From IMG/VR virus record IMGVR_UViG_3300047300_000501, positions 1-64,000 of that record: a DNA stretch of 64,000 bases. One strand, given 5' to 3'. Position 1 is the stretch's first letter. Each line of letters begins with the position of its first letter. Source of the DNA: a virus. The notes below the pieces were generated by a model. The model was not told the origin of the DNA. It searched no databases and worked only from the letters and a program-made list of their open reading frames with translations. The position numbers and the translations under genes are program-made. Shown here one piece after another: positions 4,911 to 49,555 of this stretch.

Positions 4911-4919
4911 TGGTATAAT
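4911..4919 (+). promoter_or_regulatory. Extended -10, leaderless-type promoter
   Basis: TGG-TATAAT, 7 bases before the ATG at 4927. There is no Shine-Dalgarno between them. Confidence 0.65.
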
Positions 4920-37774: not shown

Positions 37775-38215
37775 ATGGAAAATTTAGATAACGCAGTTGA
37801 AGAAACTAAAGTCGATGCTCCTGTTGAAATTGTTGAAACTCCAGTTGTTGAAGAAGTCATCCCAGAACCAGTTAAGGTTGAAGAGGCTCCAGAAGCAGTT
37901 GAAGAGCAAGCAGTTATAGGAACAGATGCCCTTGCTGCATCTACTGCAGAAGTACAGGCAGTAGGCTCAGTGGCAGGTGGAGCAATTGGAGTTGCTTCAG
38001 CACCACGTGCTCCAAAGAAGGAAGCACCAGCAAAGAAGAAGACAGTTAAGGAAACTGTAGCACTTCACTCTACAAAGAATGTTACATGGCCAGGCGTAGG
38101 CAAGGTTTACAAAGGCTATAATATTGTAGATAAGGCTGCTGCTGATCAGTGGCTAACACGTTCACACATCCGTACCGCAACACCTGAAGAAGTCGCTAAG
38201 GAATTCGGTAAGTAA
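37775..38215 (+). CDS. Head-associated acidic/basic protein (146 aa)
   Basis: Residues 1-50 are Glu/Val/Pro-rich, the middle is Ala/Gly-rich, and residues about 80-95 are a Lys-Ala-Pro stretch (RAPKKEAPAKKKTVKET). The last 50 residues form a compact domain (VTWPGVGKVYKGYNIVDKAA, then SHIRTATPEEVAKEFGK), a pattern common to small proteins between capsid and connector in actinobacteriophages. Role in head assembly is inferred from position. Confidence 0.65.
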   Translation: MENLDNAVEETKVDAPVEIVETPVVEEVIPEPVKVEEAPEAVEEQAVIGTDALAASTAEVQAVGSVAGGAIGVASAPRAPKKEAPAKKKTVKETVALHSTKNVTWPGVGKVYKGYNIVDKAAADQWLTRSHIRTATPEEVAKEFGK

Positions 38216-40774: not shown

Positions 40775-40828
40775 TGGTAGTGAGGAAACAAACGCCTTTA
40801 TTTCAAACAGAAAAAAGAGGTGAAAAAT

Positions 40829-41464
40829 ATGGCATATTCAAGAGGTAATAGTTCTCAGATTATCGTGGGAGCAGCAGCGCTGTTCACATACGAACTCGGT
40901 GAACTAGACAGTGCAAGTCTACCAGCATACGTAGATGGTACTTCTTATAAGGATACTCTGACAGGAACTCAATTGGCTCCTACAGATTTCCGCAATGTTG
41001 GATATACATCTAACGGTCTAGAAATCACGTTCCAGCCAGACTTCGCAGAAGTCGCAGTGGATCAGGTTCTCGATGCTGCAAAACTCTTCAAGCAGGGCAT
41101 GCAGGTTAACCTTAAGACTTCTTTCGCAGAAGCAACTTTGGAAAACCTTCTTTTTGCACTTGCAGGAAAAGATGCAGATCTAGCAACAGTTAGTGGCAAC
41201 CCAACACTCAACATGTCAGCAGGCGATATTGGTGAATGTCCAGTAGAGCGTGGACTTGTTGCAGTCGGACCAGGTACAGGTGACTGTGCTGAAGGTTCAA
41301 ACTTGGAAAGAATTTATGCAGCATACCGTGCACTTTCAATTGAGAGCGTTACAGTATCTGCCAAGAGAGATGCAGCGACAATGTTCGATGTAACTTTCCG
41401 CCTTCTTCCAAACAATGATGGTTCATACGGTAAGATCGTTGATCGCACTGTTACACCAGCATAA
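40829..41464 (+). CDS. Major tail tube protein (211 aa)
   Basis: MAYSRGNSSQIIVGAAALFT starts the protein, with TYELGELDSASLPAYVDGTS, NVGYTSNGLEITFQPDFAEV and QGMQVNLKTSFAEATLENLL. The 'GYT.nGlei...pe..ev.vdq' pattern is the usual tube-protein core. ATG 40829 is preferred to GTG 40820, which is part of the ribosome site. Strong codon bias and its own promoter and terminator suggest high expression. Confidence 0.82.
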   Translation: MAYSRGNSSQIIVGAAALFTYELGELDSASLPAYVDGTSYKDTLTGTQLAPTDFRNVGYTSNGLEITFQPDFAEVAVDQVLDAAKLFKQGMQVNLKTSFAEATLENLLFALAGKDADLATVSGNPTLNMSAGDIGECPVERGLVAVGPGTGDCAEGSNLERIYAAYRALSIESVTVSAKRDAATMFDVTFRLLPNNDGSYGKIVDRTVTPA

Positions 41465-41483
41465 TACAATTTAATATAAGATT

Positions 41484-41525
41484 AGCCCAGACCCTTGAAA
41501 GTCTGGGCTTTTCTGTTTTCTTTTT
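41484..41525 (+). terminator. Strong intrinsic terminator
   Basis: AGCCCAGAC (41484-41492) and GTCTGGGCT (41501-41509) are perfectly complementary and are followed by TTTCTGTTTTCTTTTT. It ends the tail-tube transcript. Confidence 0.9.
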
Positions 41526-41533
41526 GGTATACT
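41525..41533 (+). promoter_or_regulatory. Extended -10, leaderless-type promoter
   Basis: TGG-TATACT, 6 bases (GTTTAG) before the ATG at 41540. It overlaps the T-tail of the preceding terminator. Confidence 0.6.
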
Positions 41534-41539
41534 GTTTAG

Positions 41540-42217
41540 ATGGCAAAACGAGTATACAAAACTGGTTATATAGAAGATATTCATGGAAATCTTATATCAG
41601 TTTCCCCACTTAAAATTAAATATATGAGAGACTTTATGGATAAATTTGTTCTTGTTTCCCAAGCCCAAGATCAAGAAGATGCCTTAGACCTGGTCATAGA
41701 ATGTGTATTTATTTCAATGAAACAATTTGCCCCAGGAGTTTATCCAGATAAAGAAGCAGTTGCTAACAGTTTTGATCTAAAAACACTTTATAAAATATTA
41801 GAATTTGCTGCAGAGATTAAAACCTCTGGATCAGAGAGTAATGAGAAAGAATCAAAAGATGGCACCACTTGGGAAGATATAGATTTGCCAACATTAGAAG
41901 CAGAGGCATTTTTGACAGGCATATGGAAAAATTTTGAGGAACTTGAAGAGTCAATATCAATGCCAGAACTAACACTCTTATTATCTACTAAAAGAGATCT
42001 TGAATATCAGCAAAAGAAGTTTGATGCTGCTATGCAAGGTGTAAATCTTGATGAGGAAACTGATAAGTCAGATCCTTGGGAAGATATGAAAGCAAGAGTG
42101 TTTAGTGGTGGTAAAGCAAAAGATTCAAATGACATTATGTCGTTTCAAGGTCCTAAAGCACAAAAAGCAGGGTTTGGTATTGGCATGGGATTAGACTACG
42201 AAGATTTAACAAAATAA
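41540..42217 (+). CDS. Tail assembly chaperone, long form (225 aa)
   Basis: Residues about 5-95 (DIHGNLISVSPLKIKYMRDF, then LVIECVFISMKQFAPGVYPD and LKTLYKILEFAAEIK) match the 42265 protein. The extra C-terminal half is acidic and helical (LTLLLSTKRDLEYQQKKFDA). In other siphoviruses the long (GT) form is made by frameshifting from the short (G) form; here the long form has its own gene. The chaperones coat the tape measure before tail assembly. Confidence 0.72.
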   Translation: MAKRVYKTGYIEDIHGNLISVSPLKIKYMRDFMDKFVLVSQAQDQEDALDLVIECVFISMKQFAPGVYPDKEAVANSFDLKTLYKILEFAAEIKTSGSESNEKESKDGTTWEDIDLPTLEAEAFLTGIWKNFEELEESISMPELTLLLSTKRDLEYQQKKFDAAMQGVNLDEETDKSDPWEDMKARVFSGGKAKDSNDIMSFQGPKAQKAGFGIGMGLDYEDLTK

Positions 42218-42229
42218 GCGTAGGTTTCA

Positions 42230-42238
42230 TGCTATAAT
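42230..42238 (+). promoter_or_regulatory. Extended -10 promoter
   Basis: TGC-TATAAT lies 5 bases before an in-frame ATG at 42244 and 26 bases before ATG 42265. TGGAGG at 42255-42260 favours the latter. Confidence 0.5.
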
Positions 42239-42264
42239 TGGTAATGTCTACAAATGGAGGAAAA

Positions 42265-42603
42265 ATGACTACAACAGTATATGAAGCAAATAAAGTAGCA
42301 CTTATGGACGGTACAGAGATTGAACTTAAGCCACTAAGCGTTTCACTGCTTCGTAAATTTATGAAGACCTTTGATAAGATTGCAAAGGTAGCAGACGATA
42401 ATGATAAATCAATGACAGTTCTAATGGAATGTGTAACAATTGCACTAGAGCAGTATAAGCCAGAGTTGGCAAAGGATGCAGCAGCGTTGGAAGCAAATAT
42501 TGACCTTCCTACGGTTTACAAGATTGTGGATGTTGCGTCAGGTATTAAGTTGGGTGAAGATTCATTTTTGAATAGCGCCCTTGCAGCAGCAAACGCTGAA
42601 TAA
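42265..42603 (+). CDS. Tail assembly chaperone, short form (112 aa)
   Basis: LMDGTEIELKPLSVSLLRKF, then VLMECVTIALEQYKPELAKD and LPTVYKIVDVASGIKLGED align with the N-terminal half of the 41540 protein. ATG 42265 has TGGAGG close upstream; a leaderless start at 42244 would add 7 residues. It is immediately before the tape measure, the usual place of gpG-type chaperones. No slippery site links the two genes. Confidence 0.72.
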   Translation: MTTTVYEANKVALMDGTEIELKPLSVSLLRKFMKTFDKIAKVADDNDKSMTVLMECVTIALEQYKPELAKDAAALEANIDLPTVYKIVDVASGIKLGEDSFLNSALAAANAE

Positions 42604-42622
42604 GATAAAGAGGTGAGAATGA

Positions 42623-45600
42623 ATGTCAGATGTTAATGCTAATATCAGCGTTAATATTGACACGTCTGCAGCCCTAGGTGAATTAAAAAATCTACAGCGA
42701 CAGATCTCACTATTTCATAATCAAATAGCAAAATCGTCTGCATCAGCAGCGATAGCACAAAGAAACCTGCAGCAGGAATTTGTTAACTCAATTAATGCTA
42801 CAGGTCAATTTGCTGCTCGTATGCAGACAATTAAAACATCTGCCGAATCATTTACCACATCGCTTGAGAAAAATAAGTTCTCAATGCGAGAGTACTTTAG
42901 ATACGGGGTAGCCTCCTCTAAAAGTTTTGGTAAGGTATTTAAGACTGAGTTCGAAACAATCAATAAGGTTGCTGAAGAACGTGTAAGAAAACTACAGACA
43001 CAATATATCAAGATGGGCAGAGATGCCTCTGGAGCAATGAAGGCAATTGCCGTTACACCACTTGCTCTTGATATGGAAAATCTAGGAACAAAGACAATGA
43101 TGGCTGCTCAAAAGCAGCAATTGTTTAATCAACTTCTTGCACAAGGAACAACAAACCTAGTTAACTTTGGTAAGAATACACAGTGGGCTGGTCGTCAGTT
43201 GATGGTTGGTTTTACTATTCCATTAAGCATTTTTGGTTCTACTGCATCTAAGGTTTTCATGGATCTTGAAAAGCAGGTAATTAGATTTAAAAGAGTTTAT
43301 GGAGACTTGTTCACATTACCATCTGAAACAGAAGCAAACCTAACAGTAATTAGAGGTCTTGCCTCAGAGTTTACTAAGTATGGTGTTGCGATTGCTGACA
43401 CAATGTCGATTGCTGCAGATGCAGCAGCAGCAGGTTTTTCTGGTAGAAAACTTGAAGAGCAAGTAAAGGCTGCAACTAAACTATCTATTCTTGGTGAAGT
43501 AGATAAACAACAAGCATTATCAGCAACTATTGCAATGCAAACAGCATTCAAGATGAACAGCGACCAACTTGCAGAGTCTATTAACTTCCTTAACGCAGTT
43601 GAAAACCAATCTGTAGTAAGCCTTCAAAATTTAACAGATGCAATTCCTAGAGTAGCGCCAGTTATCCAAGGTCTTGGTGGAGATATCAAGGACATGTCCG
43701 TGTTCCTTGCAGCGATGCAAGAAGGTGGTGTTAATGCAGCAGAAGCAGCCAACGGTTTGAAGTCTGCTTTAGCATCTATCATTAATCCAAGCAAGGCAGC
43801 AAAAGAAATGCTTGCCAGTGTAAACATTGACCTCAACGCAATTACCACTCGAAACGAGGGTAACGTAATGAGAACAGTTCTAGATCTAGCAGATGCCATG
43901 AAGGAACTAACACCACTTGCAAGACAAAGAATTCTGGAACAACTATTTGGTAAGTTCCAGTTTGCAAGAGTATCAGCACTTTTTGATAACATTGCAAAGT
44001 CAGGATCTCAAGCAGCCAATGCCCTTGAACTTGCAAAAATGTCTTCACAAGATCTTGCAGCAATTGCAAACAAGGAATTAGGTGCAATTGAAGAAAATAC
44101 AGTCACAAAGTTTAAGGCATCTATTGAAGCACTAAGAGAATCAATTGCTCCAGTTGGAGAATCATTCCTTAAGGTTGTAACCCCAATTATTGAACTTTTT
44201 ACAAAGGTTGCAGACAAATTTAATAATCTTTCTGATGGTACCAAGAAGGTTGTCACAACACTTGTTACCCTATTTGCTGGAGTTGGCCCTGTTGTCTTGA
44301 TGTTAGTTGGTCTTATTGCTAACTTTGGTGGACAGATGCTCAAACTATTTGGTCTTATCCGTAATGGTTATTTAAGACTAAGTGGCCAATCAAAGTTTTT
44401 GGGAGAGCAAACCCAATATCTTACAAGTGAGCAGATGCAGGCAGAAGCAGTCGCACACTCGCTTGACCAGGTTCATGCTAGACTAACACAACGATTTACA
44501 GTTGAGGCAGATGCAGTTAATAATCTTCGCAATGCCTACTTGAGCGCTGCTGCAGCAAGCGAAAGATTTGCTTTTAATAACCCAGGAATGATGATTCCAC
44601 AATCTCGTCAACCAAAGAGATATGCAGAAGGTGGGGTTATTAGCGGTCCTGGAACAGGCACATCAGATTCTATAATTGCAAGGGTATCTAATGGAGAAGC
44701 AATTATTCCAGCAGCATCTGTTGCAAGAAACCCAGACCTAGTCAATGCACTTGTATCAAATAATATTCCTGGTTTTGCTTCAGGTAAAAATCCAACAACT
44801 GGAACTGTACTTGGTGGCACATTTAGATCAAGACAATATTCTCCAGTTGCAATGATGGCTCCAGGAAATACTCCTGGTGGATTTGGAATGGACAGAGAAT
44901 GGCTTCTAATGAACGAAGAGGCCAAGGCATCTTTTGCTGCATCTGTAAAGACAGCAATGATGATGGAACAAGGCATTCGTGCAACACAAGCAAATTATAG
45001 AAAGTTTGGCGAAAATCTTGCACCAACCCTCGATACCATTTTTGATATCTTTAAGCAAGGTGTCACAGATGATGTAACTAATATTTCACAAGTAGGACAA
45101 ACACAGTATCCACTTATTATTCAAAGCCTGGAACAAATGGCTGCAAATGGACAACTTGCTGCATCAGATTTGAAGTCAATGTCTGTTGCTGTTAGAAAAC
45201 TTTTAGCACCACTAGAAAGTGACTTGACACAGCAGAATATACAAAGAGTTGAACTTGCAGTAAATGATGCTGGAGAAAATTTTGTTAAGAGAGCGTCTAC
45301 AGAAAGATTTGGATTAAGTTATAAGGATCAAATCAAGAAATCGTTTTCTTCAGAACTTGCAATGCGTGGAATAGCACAGCCAGCAGATTATCCTGGTTCT
45401 TATCAGTTTGCTCATATTCCATATTCTGCACCAACAGAAAAATATGTAGAGCCATTCTTACGCAAGAAGGCAGGTGCTGGATCTGCAATTGAACAACAAG
45501 TTCTACAACAACTAAAGAATGGTGCAATATTTAAAGAAGGTCAAATCTTAATTGAGCAGCAGGCAATGCAGGTTGGACGTGTTGCAGTCGGAGCAGTTGC

Positions 45601-48600
45601 TAAGGGAGCAGGAACAGCATCGCCATCACACTTCACTGATCAAACTGGTCAAGATATTGACAATGGACTTATTATTGGAATGGAGAAGCGTTCAGGTGCA
45701 GTTGCTGCAGCAGCAGCAAAGGTTGCAAATGGAGCAGTGACACAGTTTGAGCAGACTGCTTCTGGACTTCTTATTCCAGCAGGTTCTGGAAACAATAGTG
45801 GTATGTCTGGACTTCCAGAAGGGTTTACTCCAACATCTGGAATATCAGATACAATGATTGGTCCAATGCCAAAGCAATCATTGCGTGGTAAGTTAGGAAA
45901 GGCTTATAAGAACTTTAAGCAACAGCCAATAAAACAAAAGGCATCAACGATCTCTGGTGGTGCAATGCGTGGTGGAATGGTTGCATCTGGAGCAATGATG
46001 GCTGCATCAATGTTGCCTGGTCCTATGGGACAAATTGCACAACAAGCAGCACCAGTTGTTATGGGGCTACAATCTCTTGCCATGGCTTTGCCACTATTGA
46101 CTAATCCAGTTGGACTTGCAGTTGCTGGAGTTGCAGCGGTAGCAGCAGGATTCTTCTTCTTAAAGAAAAAGCAAGATGAGTATGTAAAGAGTTTACAAGA
46201 TGCAGGAAAGAAAGAGGCTGAGGCACGTCTAGGAAATATTGAATCTATTCAGGCTTACTCTCGATATGTTGGAGATAAAGCACTTCCATCAGAAAGACAG
46301 TTTAACCGAGTTGGCGATAAGAGATTTATTGATGCTGATCTCGCAAAGGCAGCAAACTTTAGAAAATTCTATTCTGAGGAAGGCAAGACTATTGGTAACC
46401 AATTATCTGGTCGTATGGGTAAAGCAAATGCGTTAGATGTATCTGCTAGAGATGTTGCACAAAGAGCAGCATCATTTGGTTTGGGGCCAGCAGATATTGC
46501 AGCCAATATTAAGGCAGCAGCAGAACTTAGTGGTGTAAGTGAGATTAAGTTAAAGGGTAAGGTTCAAGAACTTCTTAATAAAGACGGCAAAGATATCACT
46601 AAGGAACCACTAACACTTGATGCAAGAATTAACTATCTAAGCAAAGCATCTGAATCAAGCCTATCAGTTATTCAAAGAAAAATTGATCAGATCAAGCCAC
46701 CACAACTACAAACAGATGCAAACGGTAATGTTGATTATTATGGCTATAATGCAGAGGTACAAAAGAGCAAAGAGACTCAAATCAAAAATACTAAGTTTGC
46801 AACAGTTGGACTAACCCTTGCACTTGAAGACCAAAAGAACTCACTTGCAATCCTTAATGGAATGTACGTGGATGGAAAGATTACAGTTGATCAATATAAT
46901 GCTGCATATGAAGCACAGATGGTTAACTTTAGAAATATCAAAAAAGCAACAGATGACTTAGTAAAATCTTTAGATAAGGTTGACCCAAGTGGTAAGGCAT
47001 CTCAGGCAGCAATTGAAGATATGGCTGATCAAACATTTAAGGGTCTAGAAAAAACAAATAAGAAGGTTGCAAAACTACTTAAGACAACCGTAACAAAGAG
47101 CCTGCCAAAAAACATGAGAACAGAAGTTCTTATTGCGTATGCAAATGGAAGTTTATCAGCAACAGATATTTTACAACTAGATTCAATTCTTAGTGAAATG
47201 AAGGGTAAGACCTACGAGCAAAAGGTTAAGTTTGTTGGAGACCTAACTGGCCTTTCTGATGCACTGCAAGCCCAACTTGATTATTCACTGGCAACAGAAA
47301 ATCTTAGAATTGCACAAGAAAAGTATCGTAAGGCAAAAGAACGTGGAAGCACAGCACTTGAAAAGTATAAGAAGAATCTTGACAATGCCAAGGGATCTGT
47401 AGAAAAACTTAAGAAGGCAATTGAGTCAGGTGGAAAAGTAACGAAGGACTCTCCAGAAGTTCCAGGAGGCAAGAGTGTAAGTGAAGGTGGCGGAGCAGCA
47501 GACAAGCCATACGCATTTGTTGATGATCTATTAAAGAAGTTAAAGTTAGTACGCAATAACTCTATTGATGCTACCAAGGGTGTAAAGGGCTTTATAGCAG
47601 CACTCAAGGGCGATATGAAGGGCTTCAAGGGTACAGATGAACTTCTACGTGCAGGAGGCGCTACTCAGGGCTTCATTGACATTGTAGGCGGTCTTGATGC
47701 AGTCACCTTTAAGAAGATTGAGAAGAGATTATTTACATTTACTAAGGATGGAAAGTTAAAGTTTGGTGATCTTGGGTCAGCAATTCAAAAGTTTACTAAG
47801 GAAGTTGAACTTGGAAGTTTTGTAGATCAACAGCAACAAGTTGTTAAGAATGCAGATCAGCAAATGACAGCCTATACTAAACTTAAAAATGCTGGAGTTT
47901 CTGCAACCAAGATTACTGAAATCTTGGGTAATGAGGCTTTGACAACTGCTGTAGCAGCAGAAAAGGTTGGCAGCACAGACTGGAAGAACTTTATTGCAGG
48001 TGCAAAGAGCGCAACAAAGGGTGTAACTGAACTTGGTAAAGTTTTAAAGATTAATGCATTCTTGGCAGACCAAGAGCAAGAGACATCTACAGATAAGATG
48101 AATGAATACTTTGCTGCACAAGAAGCAATCATCAGACAACAAGCACGAACAGACTTCAAGAATTTAAGAGGGTATACACCAGAACAGTATGAAGAGGTTA
48201 TTGCTAAGCAACAGGAGTCTGTAGACCTAGCGCAAAAGGCTGTAGAAGAAGAGCAAGCCAAGATAGATAAGATCCAAGAAGAGGTTGCTCTTTATAATAG
48301 AGGCCTAGAACTTATTGGTCGAGAAGAAGAGGTAATCAATAAATCTTACGAAACAAGAACTAAGGCAATTGATGATCAAATTTCTGCACTTGAAGATGTC
48401 AAGAAGGTTAACCAACAACTCATCGATCAGCAAAAACAGCAGACTGATTTAGCAGGAGCCCTTTCATCTGGAGACATTGGAGCAGCAGCAAGAATTGCAC
48501 AGGAGATGAGAGCGGGAGCAGCACAAAATTCTCAACAAGCACTCATTGATAATCTTGGTAAAAACAAGACTGCGCTTGAATTACAAAAGCAAAAAGACAT

Positions 48601-49555
48601 TGAGGCTATTCAGGTACAAATTAACGGTCAGTACTACACTAGAACTCAACTTCAAGATCTTATTGTTAAAAAAGAAGATGAAATTTATCTAATTGAGAAT
48701 ACAACATTAAAGTCACTTCAAGATAAGGCTAAGACACAAGAAACAATCCTTGGTGATATGCAAAGAATTATTGATAAATACAATAAGGATATGACTACTG
48801 CAATTAACAATGTTACTAATGCTACTGGGCAAACAAAGGCCGAATGGGAGGCCGTGAATGCAGTAATTGACACGACTGCAGATTGGCTAGGAGATGAACA
48901 TTTACTAGGATTAACCGATGATGTTGCTAATGGCACACTGAAGATTGAAGATGCTTGGAAGAAGGTTCTTGCAGCAATTAAGGCTGCTTCTGATGCTGCT
49001 GCTGCATTTGGAGCAGGCGCAAACGTTAAGGCTAATACCACTCCAACAGGATCACCAACAGCAGCACCAACCCAACTAAATGCTGCACAACAGGAGATTG
49101 CTAAGACACAAATAAGTGCTGTGCAGTCATTAGTAAAGAGTGGTCAAGTAGACAAGGCAGAGTCTGCCACAGTCGCTATGATGAAAGAGATTGCTGCAGT
49201 AAAGCCAATTGCTGCACAAGATGTTGTAGCAATGAGAAAGGCAGCACTTGGATACCTAAGTACTGGTGGACTAGTTCCAAAGTATTTTGCAGCAGGAGGC
49301 TTTGCCCGTGGTTCTGATACTGTACCAGCAATGCTTACACCAGGAGAGTTTGTTATGAGTAAGTATGCTGTTAATCAGCATGGCCTTGGTACTATGAAGG
49401 CAATCAATAATGGTCAAGAAGTTGGCGGGGCAGTGTATACTTATAACTTAAGTGTTAATGTTAAGTCTGATGCAAACCCTAACGATATTGCAAGAACGGT
49501 TATGGCACAGATTAAGCAAATTGATTCACAAAGACTTAGAGGGGTAAGACAATAA
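42623..49555 (+). CDS. Tail tape measure protein (2310 aa)
   Basis: The largest gene. Residues about 180-430 hold the TP901-type tape-measure domain (ASEFTKYGVAIADTMSIAAD, KAATKLSILGEVDKQQALSA, AAMQEGGVNAAEAANGLKSA). Hydrophobic spans occur near 535-570 and 1110-1180 (for example GPVVLMLVGLIANFG). A Gly-rich PGE-type motif appears twice: YAEGGVISGPGTGTSDS near 675 and AGGFARGSDTVPAMLTPGEF near 2230. Long coiled coils fill 1300-2150. At about 1.5 A per residue it would set a tail of roughly 350 nm. Confidence 0.95.
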   Translation: MSDVNANISVNIDTSAALGELKNLQRQISLFHNQIAKSSASAAIAQRNLQQEFVNSINATGQFAARMQTIKTSAESFTTSLEKNKFSMREYFRYGVASSKSFGKVFKTEFETINKVAEERVRKLQTQYIKMGRDASGAMKAIAVTPLALDMENLGTKTMMAAQKQQLFNQLLAQGTTNLVNFGKNTQWAGRQLMVGFTIPLSIFGSTASKVFMDLEKQVIRFKRVYGDLFTLPSETEANLTVIRGLASEFTKYGVAIADTMSIAADAAAAGFSGRKLEEQVKAATKLSILGEVDKQQALSATIAMQTAFKMNSDQLAESINFLNAVENQSVVSLQNLTDAIPRVAPVIQGLGGDIKDMSVFLAAMQEGGVNAAEAANGLKSALASIINPSKAAKEMLASVNIDLNAITTRNEGNVMRTVLDLADAMKELTPLARQRILEQLFGKFQFARVSALFDNIAKSGSQAANALELAKMSSQDLAAIANKELGAIEENTVTKFKASIEALRESIAPVGESFLKVVTPIIELFTKVADKFNNLSDGTKKVVTTLVTLFAGVGPVVLMLVGLIANFGGQMLKLFGLIRNGYLRLSGQSKFLGEQTQYLTSEQMQAEAVAHSLDQVHARLTQRFTVEADAVNNLRNAYLSAAAASERFAFNNPGMMIPQSRQPKRYAEGGVISGPGTGTSDSIIARVSNGEAIIPAASVARNPDLVNALVSNNIPGFASGKNPTTGTVLGGTFRSRQYSPVAMMAPGNTPGGFGMDREWLLMNEEAKASFAASVKTAMMMEQGIRATQANYRKFGENLAPTLDTIFDIFKQGVTDDVTNISQVGQTQYPLIIQSLEQMAANGQLAASDLKSMSVAVRKLLAPLESDLTQQNIQRVELAVNDAGENFVKRASTERFGLSYKDQIKKSFSSELAMRGIAQPADYPGSYQFAHIPYSAPTEKYVEPFLRKKAGAGSAIEQQVLQQLKNGAIFKEGQILIEQQAMQVGRVAVGAVAKGAGTASPSHFTDQTGQDIDNGLIIGMEKRSGAVAAAAAKVANGAVTQFEQTASGLLIPAGSGNNSGMSGLPEGFTPTSGISDTMIGPMPKQSLRGKLGKAYKNFKQQPIKQKASTISGGAMRGGMVASGAMMAASMLPGPMGQIAQQAAPVVMGLQSLAMALPLLTNPVGLAVAGVAAVAAGFFFLKKKQDEYVKSLQDAGKKEAEARLGNIESIQAYSRYVGDKALPSERQFNRVGDKRFIDADLAKAANFRKFYSEEGKTIGNQLSGRMGKANALDVSARDVAQRAASFGLGPADIAANIKAAAELSGVSEIKLKGKVQELLNKDGKDITKEPLTLDARINYLSKASESSLSVIQRKIDQIKPPQLQTDANGNVDYYGYNAEVQKSKETQIKNTKFATVGLTLALEDQKNSLAILNGMYVDGKITVDQYNAAYEAQMVNFRNIKKATDDLVKSLDKVDPSGKASQAAIEDMADQTFKGLEKTNKKVAKLLKTTVTKSLPKNMRTEVLIAYANGSLSATDILQLDSILSEMKGKTYEQKVKFVGDLTGLSDALQAQLDYSLATENLRIAQEKYRKAKERGSTALEKYKKNLDNAKGSVEKLKKAIESGGKVTKDSPEVPGGKSVSEGGGAADKPYAFVDDLLKKLKLVRNNSIDATKGVKGFIAALKGDMKGFKGTDELLRAGGATQGFIDIVGGLDAVTFKKIEKRLFTFTKDGKLKFGDLGSAIQKFTKEVELGSFVDQQQQVVKNADQQMTAYTKLKNAGVSATKITEILGNEALTTAVAAEKVGSTDWKNFIAGAKSATKGVTELGKVLKINAFLADQEQETSTDKMNEYFAAQEAIIRQQARTDFKNLRGYTPEQYEEVIAKQQESVDLAQKAVEEEQAKIDKIQEEVALYNRGLELIGREEEVINKSYETRTKAIDDQISALEDVKKVNQQLIDQQKQQTDLAGALSSGDIGAAARIAQEMRAGAAQNSQQALIDNLGKNKTALELQKQKDIEAIQVQINGQYYTRTQLQDLIVKKEDEIYLIENTTLKSLQDKAKTQETILGDMQRIIDKYNKDMTTAINNVTNATGQTKAEWEAVNAVIDTTADWLGDEHLLGLTDDVANGTLKIEDAWKKVLAAIKAASDAAAAFGAGANVKANTTPTGSPTAAPTQLNAAQQEIAKTQISAVQSLVKSGQVDKAESATVAMMKEIAAVKPIAAQDVVAMRKAALGYLSTGGLVPKYFAAGGFARGSDTVPAMLTPGEFVMSKYAVNQHGLGTMKAINNGQEVGGAVYTYNLSVNVKSDANPNDIARTVMAQIKQIDSQRLRGVRQ

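Follow-up and report, generated by a model that had tools for sequence, protein, structure and literature searches.

Between the tail tube and tape measure genes are two open reading frames encoding proteins of 225 and 112 residues. The window, the 64 kb of an incomplete 74,202-base IMG/VR virus record that we analysed (G+C content 35–40%), carries these genes in tandem on the plus strand: the tail tube gene (40820–41464; phrog_2175 and phrog_885, with relatives annotated as 'major tail protein'), the long gene (41540–42217), the short gene (42265–42603) and the gene for a tape measure protein of 2,310 residues (42623–49555; PF10145 and PHROG tape measure families). Both open reading frames had been placed here by a first-pass annotation, which these coordinates bear out, and a position between tube and tape measure is that of a tail assembly chaperone pair. 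The program-called reading frame of the short gene opens at a TTG codon (42238), and its start is the ATG at 42265, preceded by the sequence GGAGG. From the gene set and the relatives described below, the virion is likely to be that of a siphophage.

The short protein is a paralogue of the N-terminal part of the long one. BLASTP aligns residues 1–94 of the long form with residues 1–95 of the short form (32% identity, 58% positives, E = 1e-16), so that ~17 residues at the C-terminal end of the short form stay outside; the first-pass annotation was right about the relationship and slightly overstated its extent in letting the alignment span the whole short form. The short protein and the N-terminal part of the long protein both match phrog_10504, and the C-terminal part of the long protein matches phrog_10474, the two being distinct families drawn from phages with the parts as separate open reading frames. 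On the basis of this split and of the BLASTP alignment, the long gene is composed of domain G (41540–41821, plus strand) and domain T (41861–42202, plus strand; T-domain HMM E = 1.6e-58), and the short gene of domain G alone. The T domain is homologous to an open reading frame found in the −1 frame in frameshifting relatives. The long form is therefore the short-form domain with an extra C-terminal domain, as in known chaperone pairs, and is encoded in one frame with no frameshift needed.

The same locus is annotated as tail assembly chaperone in isolated relatives, and tblastn detected homology to annotated chaperones of Streptomyces and Rhodococcus phages. These annotations, together with a match of the long model to the GT protein of phage N15 in a library of viral folds, agree with the initial identification of both proteins as tail assembly chaperones and support their assignment as the GT (225 residues) and G (112 residues) forms of a single chaperone. 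Searches of Pfam and NCBIfam gave no useful match to either protein, and PDB sequence profiles returned noise only (prion and others, E > 0.1). The families phrog_10504 and phrog_10474, formerly without a function, can now be assigned to a tail assembly chaperone, of which each represents one half.

Two layouts of the locus exist among relatives. A first set of 80 loci was obtained from an IMG/VR scan with the short protein (80 of more than 500 matches per scan were taken into the set), and layouts were read by iterated profile searches with G and T. Within it, a fused G–T gene followed by a separate G gene is found in the window and 66 others, and a single G gene with T in the −1 frame in 13, with GGGAAAC at the overlap. 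The set was widened with three more IMG/VR scans, one genome-contig scan and annotated phage records. Among the matches listed, comprising about 335 loci, 252 are of the two-gene type and 71 of the frameshift type, the rest being nine fused long genes followed by fewer than 140 bases of contig, two broken short genes and one cut locus; contigs are partly repeated between scans, and the distinct core sequences number 193 for the two-gene and 44 for the frameshift type. Among the complete loci of these ~335, none has a fused long gene without a partner, a short gene ahead of the long one, or a frameshift pair accompanied by an extra G. The long form, described as coming first in the window, does so in every complete two-gene locus among the matches listed. 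An apparently split match in phages Trina and Francesca is a single open reading frame matched twice.

Slippery heptamers lie in phase in the frameshift-type loci, with GGGAAAC in 51, CCCAAAT in 7, CCCAAAC in 6 and GGGAAAA in 3, and the deposited annotations of two Rhodococcus phages, NiceHouse and Francesca, give the long form as a CDS joined across the frameshift. Four members of the Boydwoodruffvirinae (Braelyn, Karimac, Coruscant and Mildred21) have a −1 G/T overlap with CCCGGAA and no canonical heptamer (L084:4285–4345, L090:3010–3073, L093:2968–3025 and L094:2998–3055), and their slip site may be non-canonical. In five loci from Streptomyces phages (L082, L083, L090, L092 and L094) the T reading frame is annotated as a separate hypothetical protein with an internal start codon; this frame should rather be read as the part that the −1 frameshift adds to the chaperone. 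In one two-gene locus (L166:2914–3248; the same contig recurs as L272), the short G is spread over two reading frames, owing to either a sequencing error or a broken gene. A frameshift-type relative with CCCAAAC (L255:4696–5309) comes from a contig in a bin labelled as an uncultured cyanobacterium and, judging by its family, is possibly a mis-binned actinophage contig.

AlphaFold models of the two proteins (pLDDT of 77 and 76) contain G domains with the same order of elements, two short strands followed by helices at residues ~26–40, 45–63, 71–77 and 80–91. Structure prediction had been proposed at the outset as a check on the pair, and the secondary-structure order of the two G domains matches. 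The alignment used for the short-form fold consisted of rows from the window, IMG/VR and genome contigs only, with annotated phage records left out. Compared with predicted viral structures, the long model has two close nameless matches (E of 5.8e-14 and 3.5e-7, the latter of 273 residues, equal to the length of the NiceHouse joined CDS) and matches N15 GT, the Kitkat tail assembly chaperone and a 'chaperone frameshift protein' of Enterococcus phage EfaCPT1 with probabilities of 0.97–0.98. A fold search of the PDB with the long model found nothing significant; with the short model it ranked HK97 gp13 first (PDB code 2ob9), a non-significant match that is only suggestive owing to its E-value of 2.2 and TM-score of 0.42.

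The G domain of the short form (G-short) is more conserved than that of the long form (G-long) in 849 of 861 pairs of the same phages, with mean identities of 0.69 and 0.49, and within one phage the two are only 29–50% identical. In both, dN is well below dS, indicating that both genes are maintained, with the fast-evolving long G domain under looser constraint. In long-tailed phages, as reviewed in PMC5009743, both G and GT bind the tape measure, GT by way of its G part, and the tube protein is the binding partner of T; the G:GT ratio is about 30:1 in phage λ. Taking the binding partners and the direction and size of the ratio by analogy with λ, many copies of the short G protein would cover the tape measure; GT would join them there by its G domain, and its T domain would bring in the tail tube protein. 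The marked divergence of G-long, both between phages and from its partner, could instead reflect a split of roles beyond dosage, in which the long G domain has lost the tape measure binding of the short one. We consider this possible, although purifying selection on both copies and a predicted domain layout common to both make it the less likely reading.

The start signals of the two genes are of different kinds. In the gap between the tail tube and long genes is a terminator-like intrinsic hairpin with a T-tract (41484–41509, plus strand), found at the same place in 41 of 43 two-gene and 20 of 28 frameshift-type representatives. Following it is a predicted extended −10 element of the form TGnTAnnnT (TGGTATACT, 41525–41533, plus strand), which ends 6 nt ahead of the long-gene ATG; no Shine–Dalgarno sequence is present. 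Such elements were counted in non-redundant representatives, using a positional test with shuffles: an element ending 4–10 nt before this ATG is present in 41 of 43 (0.8 expected in shuffles), and a Shine–Dalgarno core in 0 of 43. A box beside the ATG and the lack of a Shine–Dalgarno sequence predict a leaderless mRNA for the long gene. Just past the long stop codon, 26 nt before the ATG of the short gene, is a second predicted extended −10 element (TGCTATAAT, 42230–42238, plus strand), with TGnTAnnnT ending 20–40 nt before the ATG in 38 of 39 representatives (1.5 in shuffles); the Shine–Dalgarno sequence GGAGG follows (42256–42260, plus strand), its core lying within 18 nt of the start, again in 38 of 39. 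The G gene of frameshift-type relatives has this leadered pattern too, with a distant box in 23 of 25 and a Shine–Dalgarno sequence in 20 of 25. A terminator-like hairpin between the long and short genes was detected in only 1 of 43 representatives. Because it requires a −35 element, a generic sigma-70 scan missed both boxes. The conservation of these predicted elements is in keeping with the first-pass proposal that each gene has a promoter and start of its own.

Similar elements occur elsewhere in the window. Extended −10 boxes (TGnTATAAT-like) lie ~5–11 nt before an ATG at 4911, 5388, 6881, 7841, 14959, 15488, 16151, 33143, 41525 and 56538, as if much of the genome were expressed from leaderless transcripts, to judge from these motifs. 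Structural genes with a leader and a Shine–Dalgarno-like site include those of the tail tube (40820) and the short chaperone (42265), and those at 37775 and 26811. An in-frame ATG (42244–42246) lies 5 nt past the −10 element of the short gene and seven codons upstream of the Shine–Dalgarno-led ATG; it is also present in some close relatives and, being absent in two others (L005 and L006), is probably not a used start.

With these signals, the long-gene transcript would start at or beside the ATG, and the short gene would be read both from its own leadered transcript bearing a Shine–Dalgarno sequence and, there being no terminator between the genes, by read-through from the long gene. The G:GT ratio, once fixed by the frequency of slippage, would now be set by expression, through promoter or initiation strength, a weak start, or one of low output, giving the minor product and a strong start the major one. 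In actinobacteria a leaderless start need not be a weak one: leaderless reporters in Mycobacterium smegmatis had lower predicted transcript production, and their translation was not clearly lower (PMC7148126). As the presence or absence of a leader says little about how much protein a mycobacterial gene yields (PMC7148126), and leaderless-type starts are common to many genes of this phage, the ratio could be set at the protein level, by binding or turnover, the contrast between the two starts being incidental. We regard this as unlikely, given that the contrast is conserved through the clade in the proportions above and that the G gene of the frameshift type retains the leadered form, and favour expression as the level of control.

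To place the change of layout, we used a concatenated tree of the tail tube and the tape measure N-terminus (832 columns), genes that are outside the trait itself, with the Rhodococcus phages as root. In it the two-gene phages fall into one clade (support 94/87) nested among the frameshifting phages, with the window and one relative (L010) as its first branch, and frameshifting was thus most likely lost once. The G domains of the long form are a single clade in the G tree (96/91), which points to one duplication and one origin. This nesting, and the existence of only two layouts, corroborate the earlier suggestion that duplication replaced frameshifting, which had been made with no mention of the T4-like precedent discussed below.

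Trees of the single domains, with 96–116 columns, are too short to fix the order of events. A first G tree united G-short with the G of frameshifting phages (95/87) and left G-long outside; holding long and short together was not rejected and had a slightly better score in a reduced set (p = 0.60). In the T-domain tree alone, the nearest (freshwater) frameshifting lineage is nested beside one two-gene phage (92/87), requiring two changes, and monophyly of the two-gene type was not rejected (p = 0.34). These two groupings would fit a history that began with the two-gene layout, in which the nearest frameshifting lineage lost G-long, joined G-short to T and so returned to frameshifting. Such a regain is improbable: the frameshift is at the same place in the more distant Stanwilliamsviridae, Trinavirus and L255, the two-gene type is one clade in the 832-column tree, the fast evolution of G-long would pull it outward, and the simpler history was not rejected in AU tests.

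In the favoured history, with frameshifting as the ancestral state, the ancestor would have made GT by −1 ribosomal frameshifting from a single G gene. The G part would then have been duplicated in one lineage, the upstream copy becoming fused in frame to T as a constitutive GT gene and the downstream copy encoding G only, its slippery site lost. As T follows the first copy, a duplicate of G alone set upstream would not give the observed order; a tandem copy of the G–T unit with subsequent loss of the second T would do so, as would a copy of G placed on the far side of T. We conclude that the genes very probably encode a minor GT and a major G form, that duplication and fusion in one lineage replaced the ancestral −1 frameshift, and that expression is the proposed setter of their ratio.

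In λ-type phages (λ, and HK97 gp13/14), G and GT are reportedly made by −1 programmed ribosomal frameshifting, as described by Xu et al. in 2004 and 2013. The window has neither a T domain in an overlapping −1 (or +1/−2) frame nor a slippery heptamer at the end of G; present instead are one short gene and one fused long gene, as in the T4-like case. No in-phase XXXYYYZ heptamer was found in the short gene of the window, and among 182 distinct short genes from two-gene loci, 174 have none near the end. Wherever in the short gene a shift of −1, +1 or −2 is placed, reading ends no more than 11 nt past the stop of the gene, so that a hidden frameshift within it is ruled out by stop codons; a TGA at 42620, in the frame of the tape measure, bars a fusion of the two; and profile matches detected no T frame behind the short gene in any two-gene locus among the matches listed. 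Shifts of −1, −2 or +1 are all on record for phage chaperone genes (PMC5009743) and the Boydwoodruffvirinae keep a G/T overlap with no canonical heptamer, yet with these stops in place, no T match behind the short gene and T already in frame within the long gene, it is extremely improbable that the short gene still yields an extra fused form through an unrecognised +1, −2 or non-canonical site.

The G/GT frameshift is widely conserved in long-tailed phages 'except T4', with little sequence conservation (PMC5009743). The window shares with λ-type phages the order of tube, chaperones and tape measure, the short/long domain logic and the resemblance of its long model to N15 GT, but in place of a slippery site and an overlapping frame it has two genes. 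Direct homologues of both of its domains are found in the Stanwilliamsviridae (Streptomyces phages such as Wakanda, Braelyn and Karimac) and in Trinavirus (Rhodococcus phages Trina and NiceHouse), which, unlike the window, have a single G with T in the −1 frame. The two-gene principle has a precedent in some T4-like myophages, which, as Vladimirov, Gautam & Davidson (2022) are summarized in PMC10885494, encode the short form and the fused long form in separate genes. As far as that summary goes, these chaperones resemble those of the window in lacking a frameshift and in having a long form made of the short one plus an extra C-terminal part. The T4-like phages are myophages with unrelated sequences, whereas in the case of the window sister lineages with homologous proteins still frameshift and the two genes differ in the type of start signal. 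No T4-like record is among the tblastn matches listed for both window proteins in the phage collection. In T4, gp26 and gp51, which we take to be the tail assembly chaperones, are 20% identical over 161 residues (E = 2e-6) and are encoded on opposite strands, in contrast to the tandem, long-first genes of the window.

The present two-gene case is apparently independent of the T4-like one. In the literature searched, most subscription papers being outside reach, we found no description of the same arrangement in siphophages, nor of a siphophage-type lineage that combines such a change with homologous frameshifting relatives and a conserved contrast of leaderless and leadered starts. We lean towards one switch, made within an actinophage lineage of siphophage-like type, in which control of the ratio passed from ribosomal slippage to two kinds of translation start on duplicated genes, leaderless for the long form and Shine–Dalgarno-led for the short form, with living relatives on both sides and no connection to the T4-like case. 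A near-universal recoding mechanism would thereby have been lost and replaced once, in a lineage that is now widespread.

The persistence of the G/GT frameshift raises the question of whether slippage itself is needed or only the ratio that it provides, and homologous chaperones in both forms in closely related phages make this question directly testable. The authors of PRFect assumed that genomes with two chaperone genes hold unjoined frameshift genes (PMC10885494); the two-gene set is a class for which this assumption is wrong. Nor does a missing slippery site imply a missing chaperone, a point to be borne in mind for the Gordonia cluster DJ phages, in which the chaperone is described as 'absent' (PMC12859696).

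Annotated relatives infect Streptomyces and Rhodococcus. WhiB, an actinobacterial family, scored above the cut-off in five of six relatives, of both layouts, and in a control set was positive only in Corynebacterium; its presence in the relatives points to hosts among the actinobacteria. The genome-contig scan found one relative only, in the bin named for a cyanobacterium, and gave no prophage evidence for a host. Judging by its low G+C content and its family, the phage of the window probably infects a freshwater actinobacterium. A weak, sub-threshold WhiB-like match was observed in the record of the window (G000:C1:69226–69291) within an open frame of 276 residues, which is also present in two relatives at 261–271 residues.
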